DNA of 32,664 nucleotides from a bacterium (GTDB lineage Bacteria; Bacillota; Clostridia; Lachnospirales; Lachnospiraceae): positions 1-32,664 of the forward strand of contig JAQYCU010000019.1 of assembly GCA_028724545.1 (NCBI GenBank). Reading direction: 5' to 3'. Below, in pieces: positions 15,983-20,069 of the stretch; within the stretch, counting starts at the first letter, position 1, and every line of letters begins with the position of its first letter. The position numbers and the translations under genes are program-made. The notes beneath the pieces were generated by a model, which saw only the letters and a program-made list of their open reading frames with translations, searched no databases and was not told the DNA's origin.

Positions 15983-16996
15983 TTAATCTTCCCAGCTAAT
16001 ATCAGGATATTCTGCACGACGTTCTCTCGTCAGCAGACGTTTTACTGCTTCACTGGCTGATGCACCTTCAAACAGCACAGAACAGATTTCTTCTACAATT
16101 GGCATAGACACCTGATATTTTGCAGCAAGTTTACGAACAGCTTTTGCCGAATAAACACCTTCCACAACCTGCTTTACTTCTTTTAATGCTGCATCAGCTG
16201 TATATCCCTGTCCGATTAAATAACCGGCATTATAATTTCTGCTGTGCTTGCTGGTACAGGTTACAATCAAATCACCAATTCCGGACAAACCGGCAAGTGT
16301 TTCTACTTTTGCACCCATTGCAACGCCAAGACGCGAAATCTCAGCAATTCCACGTGTAATCAGTGCTGCTTTTGTATTATCGCCATACCCTAAACCATCA
16401 CATGCTCCGGCTGCAAGGGCGATAACATTTTTTACAGAGCCACCCAGTTCGATACCTATGATATCCGGACTAGTATAAACACGAAATCTTTCATTCATAA
16501 AAATTTCCTGAATGAAAACAGCTGTTTCTTTGCTGGTCGCGCCAACGACTACCGTGGTAGGCATACCAATGGCTACTTCTTCTGCATGGCTTGGACCGGA
16601 TAATACCGAAACATCAGCCTGAGGAATTTCTTCCATCAGAATGTCGCGTAAAGTATCCAGAGAACTCTCTTCGATTCCTTTTGCCACATTTACGATTTTC
16701 TGTCCCTCTGGAATCAGGCTGCAGGCTTCCTGTGCTACACTTCGCACAAAAGGTGATGCAACAGAAAATACAATCAGCTCCATGCCCGTGCAGGCAGCCT
16801 CCAAATCATTTGTGACAACAATAGAATCCGGCAGTTTTACTCCCGGAAGACGGTTTTTATGCTCTCTGTTTTCCTGAAGCATCGTTACCTCTGCTTCTAC
16901 TTTTGACCAAAGTGTCACTTCGTGACCTTGTTTTGCCAGCATAATTGACAATGCCGTTCCCCAGCTTCCGGCACCCAGAAAACTAACTTTGCTCAC
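15983..16996 (-). CDS. gpsA: NAD(P)H-dependent glycerol-3-phosphate dehydrogenase GpsA
   Basis: GpsA reduces dihydroxyacetone phosphate to sn-glycerol 3-phosphate, the acceptor used by PlsY in phospholipid synthesis. The 337-aa protein has the N-terminal nucleotide-binding loop LGAGSWGTAL (residues 7-16), VNVAKGIE, SGPSHAEEV, the catalytic Lys in GGSVKNVIALAAG (about residue 190), and GLSGIGDLIVTCTS. Length is normal. The start is a GTG at 16996 with GGAGG nine bases upstream. The plsY reading frame, if carried through its amber codon, ends inside gpsA (stop at 16985-16983), overlapping by 14 bases. This is the arrangement expected for a translationally coupled plsY-gpsA pair. Confidence 0.97.
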   Translation of the reverse strand: MSKVSFLGAGSWGTALSIMLAKQGHEVTLWSKVEAEVTMLQENREHKNRLPGVKLPDSIVVTNDLEAACTGMELIVFSVASPFVRSVAQEACSLIPEGQKIVNVAKGIEESSLDTLRDILMEEIPQADVSVLSGPSHAEEVAIGMPTTVVVGATSKETAVFIQEIFMNERFRVYTSPDIIGIELGGSVKNVIALAAGACDGLGYGDNTKAALITRGIAEISRLGVAMGAKVETLAGLSGIGDLIVTCTSKHSRNYNAGYLIGQGYTADAALKEVKQVVEGVYSAKAVRKLAAKYQVSMPIVEEICSVLFEGASASEAVKRLLTRERRAEYPDISWED

Positions 16997-17174
16997 TTTC
17001 GTCTGCCTCCTTCTCCTTTTTCTGTCCTAATTTATTTTCATTTCCATGAATCAATCTTACTATATTTTCACGATGTTGAAAATAGGCAAATATTGTAAAC
17101 AGTAAACTAATTACCATCATATGTACAAAAGCATCATCTCCCCGATGGAAAACTAATGTATTTGCCGGAATATA
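16983..17174 (-). other. Continuation of plsY frame after the in-frame amber codon
   Basis: Directly after the TAG at 17177-17175 the same frame stays open for 63 codons. The translation runs YIPANTLVFHRGDDAF, a hydrophobic segment (MMVISLLFTIFAYF), then HRENIVRLIHGNENKLG and a charged tail. The HRxNIxRLxxGxExK pattern is the usual C-terminal signature of PlsY, so this is the missing part of that gene. There is no ribosome binding site or suitable start for separate translation of the piece. It ends with TAG at 16985-16983, inside gpsA. Confidence 0.85.
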
Positions 17175-17630
17175 CTAGGCTACAAAAAGGGAACCAACGG
17201 AAACATAACGTGTCAGCGCAACAGCTGCCACGAAAATAGCAAGACCTATCGGAATCATAATCGGATTTGCGCAGGCCATAACAATTGCTGCCGTAACGGC
17301 AATTCCTTTTCCACCTTTGAATCCAAGATAAAAAGGATAGTTGTGCCCTAATACCACACCAAGACCACAATACAGACATAATAAATACCAGTCTGTCTGC
17401 GTGTCAAAACAGAAACGAATCAGCATCAGTGGAACAATTGCTTTCAAAACATCCCCTAAAAAGGTAATAATGGCAGGTATAATACCAAAATTACGAAGTA
17501 CATTTGTTGTTCCGGCATTTCCACTTCCTAATGTTCTGATATCCTTGTGATAAAACTTTCCAACAAAATAACCACTGGAAATACATCCAAAACAATATCC
17601 AACTAACAGACAAATTACTATTTCAATCAT
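17175..17630 (-). CDS. plsY: Acyl-phosphate:glycerol-3-phosphate acyltransferase PlsY, interrupted by an amber codon
   Basis: PlsY transfers an acyl group from acyl-phosphate to glycerol 3-phosphate, the first step of phospholipid synthesis, in the membrane. The encoded 151-aa protein has motif 1 (GSGNAGTTN, residues 35-43), motif 2 (GHNYPFYLGFKGGKG, residues 95-109) and a third motif RYVSVGSL near the end. It stops at TAG right after SLFVA, while the family is about 190-220 aa. The same frame continues to 16983 with a typical PlsY C-terminus, giving a 215-residue product if the amber codon is read. As it stands the last membrane helix is lost. Causes could be nonsense mutation, read-through or sequence error. 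The ATG at 17630 has GGAGG five bases upstream; a TTG at 17648 is unlikely. Confidence 0.9.
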   Translation of the reverse strand: MIEIVICLLVGYCFGCISSGYFVGKFYHKDIRTLGSGNAGTTNVLRNFGIIPAIITFLGDVLKAIVPLMLIRFCFDTQTDWYLLCLYCGLGVVLGHNYPFYLGFKGGKGIAVTAAIVMACANPIMIPIGLAIFVAAVALTRYVSVGSLFVA

Positions 17631-17648: not shown

Positions 17649-18968
17649 CTATTTTTCTTTTCTTTCACGAATCAGGAATTTCAACGGAGTTCCGGCAAAA
17701 CCAAACGCTTCGCGAATTTTGTTTTCTAAGTATCTGGTGTACGAAAAATGCATCAGACGTTTATCATTAACAAAGATAACAAACGTTGGTGGTTTTACGC
17801 TGACCTGTGTCATATAATAAATTTTCAAGCGACGTCCCTTGTCAGATGGTGGCTGCTGCATCGCTACTGCTTCTGCCAGAATATCATTCAGGACACCTGT
17901 TGCAATACGAAGCTGGTGATTCTGAATAACAACATCCAGCACATCAAATAACTTTGGAAGTCTTTGTCCTGTTTTTGCTGATAAAAAGATAATTTCGGCA
18001 TATGGCAAAAAGGACAAAACCATACGGATTTTATTTGTATATTCCTTTACGGACTGATTATTCTTTTCAATGGCATCCCATTTGTTAACGGCAATAATCA
18101 TACCACGTCCACGGTCATGTGTAATACCGGCAATTTTTGCATCCTGCTCTGTCACGCCCTCTGTTGCATCAATTACAAGTACGACAACATCGGCACGTTC
18201 TACTGCTGAAACGGTACGCAGAATACTATATCGTTCAATTTCTTCTTTGATTTTATTTTTCCGTCGAAGTCCTGCTGTGTCAATAAAAACATATTCTTTA
18301 TCATTCCAGGTAATGGAAGTATCGATGGCATCACGTGTTGTTCCTGCAACATCTGATACAATGACACGGTTTTCACCCAGCAATTTATTAATAATGGATG
18401 ATTTGCCGACATTTGGTTTGCCGACAATGGCCACACGTGGTCTTTCATCCTCTTCCTGCTCTAAATCTTCCGGGAACATAGCAACAACTTCATCCAGCAT
18501 GTCACCAATTCCTAATTTTGCAATGGAAGATACCGGATGTGGTTCTCCGATTCCAAGATTATAAAATTCGTAAACGTCAGGCATCATTTTATCAAAGTTG
18601 TCTACTTTGTTAACAACCAAAACAACCTTTTTCTGTGCCTTGCGTAACATATCAGCTACTTTAAAATCTGCATCAACAAGTCCCTGCTTGACATCAACAA
18701 CAAACATAACAACATCTGCCATTTCAATTGCCATTTCTGCCTGTTCACGCATATTGCGAAGCATCTGGTTATTTGTTTCCGGCTCGATTCCACCGGTATC
18801 CATTATTGTAAAATTGTATTTCAGCCAGGATACATCAGCATAGATTCTATCTCGCGTAACACCCGGCGTATCTTTTACAATCGCAATTCTCTCTCCTGCC
18901 ATCATATTGAAAATAGTAGACTTTCCCACATTTGGACGGCCTACGATGGCTACTATCGGTTTACTCAC
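17649..18968 (-). CDS. der: Ribosome assembly GTPase Der (EngA)
   Basis: Der is an essential tandem GTPase that acts in 50S subunit assembly. The 439-aa protein has two G domains: the first with GRPNVGKS (residues 10-17), DTGG and NKVD, the second with GKPNVGKS (about residues 182-189), DTAGLRRKN and NKWD. A C-terminal KH-like domain follows (MTQVSVKPPTFVIFVNDKRL). Length is typical. The start is a GTG at 18968 with AGGAGG five bases upstream; the overlapping ATG at 18970 is followed at once by a stop. It lies 9 bases after the FKBP-like lipoprotein gene and 18 bases before plsY, in one unit. Confidence 0.98.
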   Translation of the reverse strand: MSKPIVAIVGRPNVGKSTIFNMMAGERIAIVKDTPGVTRDRIYADVSWLKYNFTIMDTGGIEPETNNQMLRNMREQAEMAIEMADVVMFVVDVKQGLVDADFKVADMLRKAQKKVVLVVNKVDNFDKMMPDVYEFYNLGIGEPHPVSSIAKLGIGDMLDEVVAMFPEDLEQEEDERPRVAIVGKPNVGKSSIINKLLGENRVIVSDVAGTTRDAIDTSITWNDKEYVFIDTAGLRRKNKIKEEIERYSILRTVSAVERADVVVLVIDATEGVTEQDAKIAGITHDRGRGMIIAVNKWDAIEKNNQSVKEYTNKIRMVLSFLPYAEIIFLSAKTGQRLPKLFDVLDVVIQNHQLRIATGVLNDILAEAVAMQQPPSDKGRRLKIYYMTQVSVKPPTFVIFVNDKRLMHFSYTRYLENKIREAFGFAGTPLKFLIRERKEK

Positions 18969-18977
18969 ATTTACCTC

Positions 18978-20069
18978 CTATGATTCTTTCACATTCTTAA
19001 CTAAATAATCTGCTACTTTCTGATACAGCAAATCATTGTAAATAATCTGCTTTGCTGTTGTTCCATATGTTTCCTTAAACTGCTTATTTAAGTCCGATTC
19101 TTTTTCACAATTATAATTTGTTAAATATGTTTTCAGTTCTTCTTTGTATTCGTCATCACTGATTGTAATATTCTCAGCCTGGGCAATCGCATTGTAAACC
19201 AACTGATTACCGACATCTTCCTGCGCAGTTTCTTTCACCTGCTTTTCATAATCTTCTTTGCTTGTATTTAAGTTTGTCAGATAATCATCTAATGTCATAC
19301 TATTTTGTGCCAGATATGCTTCAATGGAAGTCTTTAACTGTGTTTCCATTTCTTTTACTTTATCCTCAGGATATTTTTTTATCTTGGTATCATTACATAC
19401 TTTGGCAACTGCTTTGGACTGAATAATTGTTGCACGGTTCTGTGTCATATAATCCTCTACAGAAGTATAAGTCGTCAGATTCTTTTTCACGAAATCATCC
19501 GTAAATTCCTGCTTTACTTTTTTACCCTGCTTATAATTTATTGTCACGGTAAATACTGCTTTTTTGCCGGATAATTCCTCATTTGCAGAATAATTGTCTG
19601 GGAAAGTTACATCAATATCATATGTTTTTCCTATTTTTTTGCCAATCAGTCCTTCCTCAAAACCATCAATAAAGGTATTAGAACCAATTTCCAAATCATA
19701 ACCGTCCGGCGTATTCTCTTTTGTGCAGGAACCACCATCAAATGCAACGCCATCTATTTTACCAACATAGAAAATATTTACGGTATCGCCATCTTTTACG
19801 GTTCCTTTTTTCACATGTTTGTATGTTGCGTACTCATCTAGCGTCTGGTCAATTCCTTCCTGCAATTCTTTGTCAATTTCATCCTTGTCCAGTTCAATAA
19901 CAGAATAGTCTGCCAGTTCAATATAAGATTTTGCATTCTGAATAAGAGGTGTACTCTCTTTTTCCATATTCACTGTTTTCTTTGCCTTGTCTGCTGCACC
20001 ACATCCTGTCATAGAAGCAACTGCCAGACAGCTGCACAAAGAAAGCATAAGCCATTTTTTCTTCATCAC
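18978..20069 (-). CDS. FKBP-type / trigger-factor-like peptidyl-prolyl isomerase lipoprotein
   Basis: This 363-aa protein has a lipoprotein signal: basic start, hydrophobic segment, then SMTGC with the lipidated Cys at residue 23. An FKBP-type isomerase domain follows (about residues 90-185: DGDTVNIFYVGKIDGVAFDGG, then IDGFEEGLIGKKIG and TFPDNY). The helical C-terminal part (about residues 190-360) resembles the trigger factor chaperone C-domain. It is likely an extracytoplasmic foldase anchored on the outer face of the membrane, comparable in role to PrsA though from a different isomerase family; this is inference. The start is either GTG at 20069 (GGAGG 9 bases upstream) or ATG at 20066 (12 bases); the signal peptide is the same. 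It leads the der-plsY-gpsA unit. Confidence 0.88.
   Translation of the reverse strand: MMKKKWLMLSLCSCLAVASMTGCGAADKAKKTVNMEKESTPLIQNAKSYIELADYSVIELDKDEIDKELQEGIDQTLDEYATYKHVKKGTVKDGDTVNIFYVGKIDGVAFDGGSCTKENTPDGYDLEIGSNTFIDGFEEGLIGKKIGKTYDIDVTFPDNYSANEELSGKKAVFTVTINYKQGKKVKQEFTDDFVKKNLTTYTSVEDYMTQNRATIIQSKAVAKVCNDTKIKKYPEDKVKEMETQLKTSIEAYLAQNSMTLDDYLTNLNTSKEDYEKQVKETAQEDVGNQLVYNAIAQAENITISDDEYKEELKTYLTNYNCEKESDLNKQFKETYGTTAKQIIYNDLLYQKVADYLVKNVKES

Follow-up and report, generated by a model that had tools for sequence, protein, structure and literature searches.

The plsY gene of a Lachnospiraceae bacterium (GenBank assembly GCA_028724545.1) carries one in-frame TAG in its assembled form, and on balance we lean towards the view that the TAG is peculiar to this assembly and comes from one changed base, either a mistake of the consensus or a variant that is not fixed in the population, the living cells carrying an intact plsY. 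An otherwise ordinary plsY under purifying selection would have had a single base changed in the assembly, TGG to TAG; the source would be an error of the consensus, or a variant found in part of the population and chosen by the assembler, and living cells would make full-length PlsY from the sense codon. An intact plsY in living cells is the simplest explanation, since the gene is single-copy and expected to be essential, the truncation removes active-site residues, the sequence behind the stop has not decayed, and no suppressor is visible. An annotation pipeline would take this gene for a pseudogene and conclude, probably wrongly, that the organism lacks a lipid pathway.

The stretch of DNA analysed, referred to as the window (32,664 nucleotides), is the entire contig 19 of a 2.27-Mb genome that is distributed over 75 contigs and has an estimated completeness of 99.64%. 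No 16S match was obtained in this genome (G000), and tRNAs for Ala, Asn, Ile, Phe and Tyr were absent among its 33 typed tRNAs. Together with the number of contigs, these gaps weakly suggest a short-read draft or a metagenome bin, weakly because the same 16S search also missed the gene in five of 14 known control genomes.

A plsY frame with one internal stop

The plsY frame lies on the minus strand at 16983..17630, with an ATG at 17630 and a GGAGG just 5' of it. The in-frame TAG (17175..17177, minus strand) divides it into an upstream part of 151 codons (17178..17630, minus strand) and a downstream part of 63 codons (16986..17174, minus strand), after which a second TAG at 16985-16983 terminates the frame. 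The frame overlaps by 14 bases with gpsA (NAD(P)H-dependent glycerol-3-phosphate dehydrogenase; 15983..16996, minus strand; full-length family match). Since the GTG start of gpsA, at 16996, is located inside the plsY frame, a shorter plsY translation might lower the translation of gpsA. The gene der (ribosome biogenesis GTPase; 17649..18968, minus strand) is also a full-length family match, and its terminator is TAG.

In all six frames of the window, 153 of 2940 stops are followed by at least 63 open codons, and openness of this length is by itself weak evidence for a real gene. The upstream piece matched positions 5-146 of the PlsY family TIGR00023 with 106.5 bits, and the 63-residue downstream piece matched positions 164-196 of 196 with 24 bits (E 2.9e-5); neither reaches the curated cut-off (137.2) by itself, which is expected of halves. 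In the whole-genome profile search, PF02660 was aligned from 1 to 164 of its 164 positions across the one TAG, with 168 bits against a cut-off of 24.1. Homology of both pieces therefore identifies the downstream frame as a real PlsY C-terminus, and the locus is, judged from these profile matches, one PlsY gene by descent that carries one stop. An earlier note on this DNA, made from the letters alone, had placed the TAG, the 63 open codons, the PlsY ending and the gpsA overlap exactly where the coordinates and the TIGR00023 and PF02660 matches now put them.

The other genes of the window appeared ordinary in this respect. When 29 other frames of the window were searched against NCBIfam, with differing thresholds, 24 had a family match and five had none, and no stop-cut gene was apparent among them. 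A trigger-factor-like gene (18978-20069) matched only positions 105-410 of 410 of its family, below the cut-off, and an acyl-CoA dehydrogenase is interrupted by the contig end. MutS and MutL, both encoded in the window, matched their own families at full length, which speaks against hypermutation through broken mismatch repair.

The aligned codon in relatives

Thirty relative loci were aligned with the gene, 23 of them from the 27 same-genus genomes and seven from named contigs, four of which duplicate genus genomes, making 26 distinct copies. The same-genus genomes without a plsY match (G013, G016, G020 and G025) are 63-88% complete, and second, weaker PlsY-like matches of some relatives were left out of the alignment. 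The codon aligned with the TAG is TGG (tryptophan) in all 26 distinct copies, which come from the genus and near relatives, none of the same species; TGG and TAG are separated by one transition. The comparison with close relatives that the earlier note had suggested thus returned a sense codon throughout. The nearest copies are only 77-82% identical in amino acids, and a second strain of this species is therefore not among the relatives. In the listed matches of 61 genomes (G000 and 60 relatives), an internal stop was seen in G000 only. A wider alignment comprised 53 loci, and the 52 besides that of G000 all lack a stop in the TAG column, which outside the genus is occupied mainly by small or hydrophobic residues. 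Of the family genomes drawn, 388 of 397 had a PF02660 match, and no internal stop occurred among the matches listed for them. Because a change of one base would turn any of 63 of the 214 plsY codons into a stop, one wrong base easily yields one. The conserved TGG, the stop in G000 only among the matches listed, and this proportion of near-stop codons support an error or an unfixed variant as the most likely origin of the TAG.

In one relative (G026, locus L145), the plsY frame hits a stop well past HRENI, within the variable tail at the C-terminus, and then continues with a tail resembling that of its relatives. A second, more diverged PF02660 match was seen in, for example, G017, G021, G030, G042, G043, G046, G049 and G054; duplicated PlsY-like genes, as these matches indicate, exist in the order, and the search of G000 gave none.

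Constraint after the stop

On the 3' side of the stop, the dN comparison covered the 42 codons that precede the variable tail; it was made against 21 other copies, synonymous sites being mostly saturated. The mean dN ratio of the C-part to the N-part was 1.04, the third lowest of the 22 copies (0.96-1.37 in the others), and the identity after the stop to the three nearest copies was 81-88% over the 42 codons. Against three less close copies (L019, L034 and L023), identity was 69-71% after the stop and 75% before it, a pattern common to most of the genus. Decay was not detected, i.e., constraint was not relaxed over these 42 codons and the gene has only one stop; with a C/N dN ratio of 1.04 and no further stop, a decayed pseudogene was rejected. 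It follows that the gene was still in use a very short time ago, continues to be read through, or has no such stop in the living population.

Other interrupted genes in the assembly

The window and a further 388 kb in 20 stretches (L092-L111), altogether 421,065 bases or about 19% of the genome, were scanned for coding sequence flanking a stop in the same frame. A stricter codon-usage scan yielded 18 same-frame pairs and missed plsY itself; a looser scan yielded 34 pairs, plsY included, of which seven besides plsY were without a start and Shine-Dalgarno-like site near the stop. All seven doubtful pairs were read by translation, and for six of them the downstream piece, for one also the upstream piece, was searched against Pfam. 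No split family was found among the pieces searched, five of the six downstream pieces being without a match; the plsY C-terminal piece, used as yardstick, itself matched PF02660 only with E 0.032, below the cut-off, and the search is accordingly weak for pieces this short. The seventh pair (L097:6069, minus strand) was judged by eye only. When 335 reference frames were run as tblastn queries, 148 matches were usable, distributed over about 60 places; at the plsY TAG, 28 stop-bearing rows were in the reading frame of plsY itself. The stop-bearing matches at L093 and L111 are antisense shadows of intact genes, and the remaining stop-bearing rows of the window, judged as a group and not singly, are plus frames opposite minus-strand genes. 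A second interrupted gene was thus not confirmed in the 421 kb, at the modest sensitivity of about 60 tblastn places and of a stricter scan that missed plsY. On scans of this sensitivity the assembly is not obviously error-rich, which counts against an error as the source of the TAG.

A possible recent nonsense mutation

From its list of options the earlier note had chosen none, and two of them remain, namely, a sequence error and a very recent nonsense mutation, whereas a second plsY, a suppressor and recoding are disfavoured. The main rival to a change private to the assembly, possible but doubtful, is a genuine nonsense mutation of very recent date that has become fixed in the strain sequenced, the cell surviving on a little full-length PlsY from basal misreading of UAG. 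It would agree with the single transition from the conserved TGG and with the undecayed downstream sequence, and also with the account of Belinky et al. (2021, PMC7918605), in the part of that paper available here, that in-frame stops are widespread in bacterial genes, are mostly short-lived, have dN/dS below 1 and can be inferred to be read through. That such young stops are common is, by the same account, already known. Like them, the plsY stop is one step from a sense codon, is flanked by sequence under purifying selection and is apparently young; unlike them, it is found in one genome only, whereas the study in its available part focuses on stops common to two or more species and warns of artefacts.

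The GCC codon that precedes the conserved TGG would create a CCWGG site, and CCWGG with its second C methylated is a classic deamination hotspot; the genome also has one C5-methyltransferase over the cut-off, which may fit such a mutation. In the window and L092-L111 (421 kb), CCWGG is the second most depleted motif, with 317 sites against 697 expected (0.45); in 100 kb each of two relatives there were 51 against 79 expected (0.65; G014) and 72 against 122 (0.59; G012). Nonetheless, the sequences that deamination of CCWGG would produce show no enrichment, CCTAG being at 0.85 and CCAAG at 0.97 of expectation, and for this reason the origin of the TAG at a deamination hotspot is unsupported. Codons ending in CC before TGG number 42 of 775, against 3.3% overall, i.e., they are not rarer there. 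A fixed mutation is further opposed by the expected essentiality of plsY, by an intact RF1 and a tRNA-Trp of the genus type, and by the base after the TAG, which is U, UAG followed by U being a strong stop context.

It is improbable, in our estimate, that this is a natural strain in which the only plsY is interrupted by a fixed amber codon and the need for phospholipid is met by low-level, unprogrammed read-through of a standard-code UAG. If true, leaky termination would here be providing, in nature, an enzyme that the cell cannot do without. A stop fixed in living cells would show how little PlsY suffices, and to what extent an essential gene can depend on leaky termination.

Decoding of the TAG

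Programmed read-through or recoding is unlikely, and there is very little probability that the TAG is a selected regulatory stop with a dedicated signal or suppressor tRNA. The intact downstream frame is what such a mechanism would require, and the RNA 3' of the stop has a fold of -21.8 kcal/mol; however, 32 of 200 shuffles folded equally well (z -1.09), i.e., no stimulatory structure better than the shuffles was found there, and the U that follows the TAG offers no stimulatory context either. The absence of the stop from all 26 distinct relatives, none of the same species, and the use of TAG as the frame's own terminator also speak against it.

The genome gave 35 tRNA matches, 33 of which were typed by ARAGORN and two of which were partial and untyped. 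A CUA anticodon was not seen in the 33 typed tRNAs, a set that is incomplete in this assembly for the five amino acids named above; a suppressor tRNA could be among the unassembled ones or the untyped two. PylS had three weak matches, none over the cut-off, in a search whose control exceeded the cut-off in one of 14 genomes, and pyrrolysine was rejected on this result. The search for tRNA-Trp gave a match in 24 of 28 genomes, G000 among them, and its tRNA-Trp is of the genus type, with 100% identity to those of G001, G012, G013, G014, G016, G021 and G023 across the 71 or 72 bases aligned. Base 24 and the mismatched 27-43 pair, as counted by eye, are what we take to be the sites at which misreading of stops would be suspected; a mutant tRNA-Trp that misreads stops was rejected, the gene being identical in these seven same-genus genomes.

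Neither sign of amber reassignment was observed, namely, loss of RF1 or disuse of TAG as a terminator: RF1 is present (553 bits) without an internal stop, and TAG terminates 65 of 240 long open frames in the 421 kb. The judgement of the earlier note that general amber recoding is unlikely is borne out by the intact RF1 and by the seven other window frames that were counted to end in TAG, as it had said; its option of a suppressor or pyrrolysine tRNA loses ground with the lack of a typed CUA anticodon and of a PylS match over the cut-off. The plsY gene resembles the genes of pyrrolysine or suppressor-tRNA systems in that a conserved reading frame continues past an in-frame TAG, and differs from them in that here PylS over the cut-off and a typed CUA tRNA were not found, RF1 is present and TAG is an ordinary terminator.

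Need for PlsY

That PlsY is dispensable because another enzyme supplies lysophosphatidic acid is hardly credible. In its favour, six of 320 good-quality family genomes had no PF02660 match, a number for which gaps could account. In B. subtilis, however, plsB is absent and both PlsX and PlsY are essential, according to the available text of PMC1950310, in which the wording "nonsense mutation" refers to a cat gene. In the present genome plsX is single and intact, and plsY is the single PF02660 match of the whole genome, and on this result a second plsY, another of the options proposed earlier, was rejected. The check for a plsB- or plsC-type enzyme gave just two PF01553 acyltransferases in the genome search, with open frames of 257 and 252 codons, which is the size of PlsC; none was of plsB size, and a plsB-like enzyme was likewise rejected. 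The undecayed downstream part of plsY also argues against dispensability.

Residues beyond the stop

In the available part of PMC5700162, the glycerol-3-phosphate pocket of Aquifex PlsY is formed by Ser35, Arg45, Lys104, Ser142, His177 and Asn180, Motif 3 spans residues 177-189, and His177 is described as irreplaceable or indispensable. The upstream piece and an intact relative were aligned with the structure 5xj5, the chain index of which was judged, from the contexts of Lys104 and Ser142, to be the numbering of the paper plus one. The upstream part retains four of the six pocket residues, aligned with Ser35, Arg45, Lys104 and Ser142, the last being five codons 5' of the stop; the counterparts of His177 and Asn180 come only after the stop, in the HRENI of HRENIVRL. 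The stop is therefore not directly after the third conserved motif, as had been thought, since the published Motif 3 corresponds to HRENIVRL and lies downstream. The last membrane helix would also be in the downstream part. The gene is like known PlsY (TIGR00023, PF02660; acyl-phosphate:glycerol-3-phosphate acyltransferase; 5xj5) in that the whole of PF02660 is aligned and all six pocket residues are in the DNA, but it is unlike it in the in-frame TAG that separates the Ser142-aligned residue from the last two, and under the standard code a normal PlsY product is not encoded. Because these two residues are beyond the stop, the 151-residue product should be inactive, and the puzzle that the earlier note saw in a truncated copy of an essential gene becomes sharper. 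Despite the four pocket residues in the upstream part, the least credible explanation is that the truncated protein functions, either by itself or together with a C-terminal piece made by separate translation, as it has lost the counterparts of His177 and Asn180 and no Shine-Dalgarno-like start was found near the stop, the first possible start being 18 codons downstream.

Methyltransferase frame and depleted motifs

The putative C5-cytosine methyltransferase frame (L152, 1114-2469, plus strand; 451 aa) is found on a 3.1-kb contig (L154), and its N-terminus appeared helix-turn-helix-like by eye. The most depleted of the 1024 pentamers was GAGAC/GTCTC, seen 38 times against 287 expected in the 421 kb of the genome. 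In 100 kb of each of two relatives it was hardly or not avoided, with 87 against 112 expected in G014 and 97 against 95 in G012, and its avoidance here may mark a restriction system specific to this genome.
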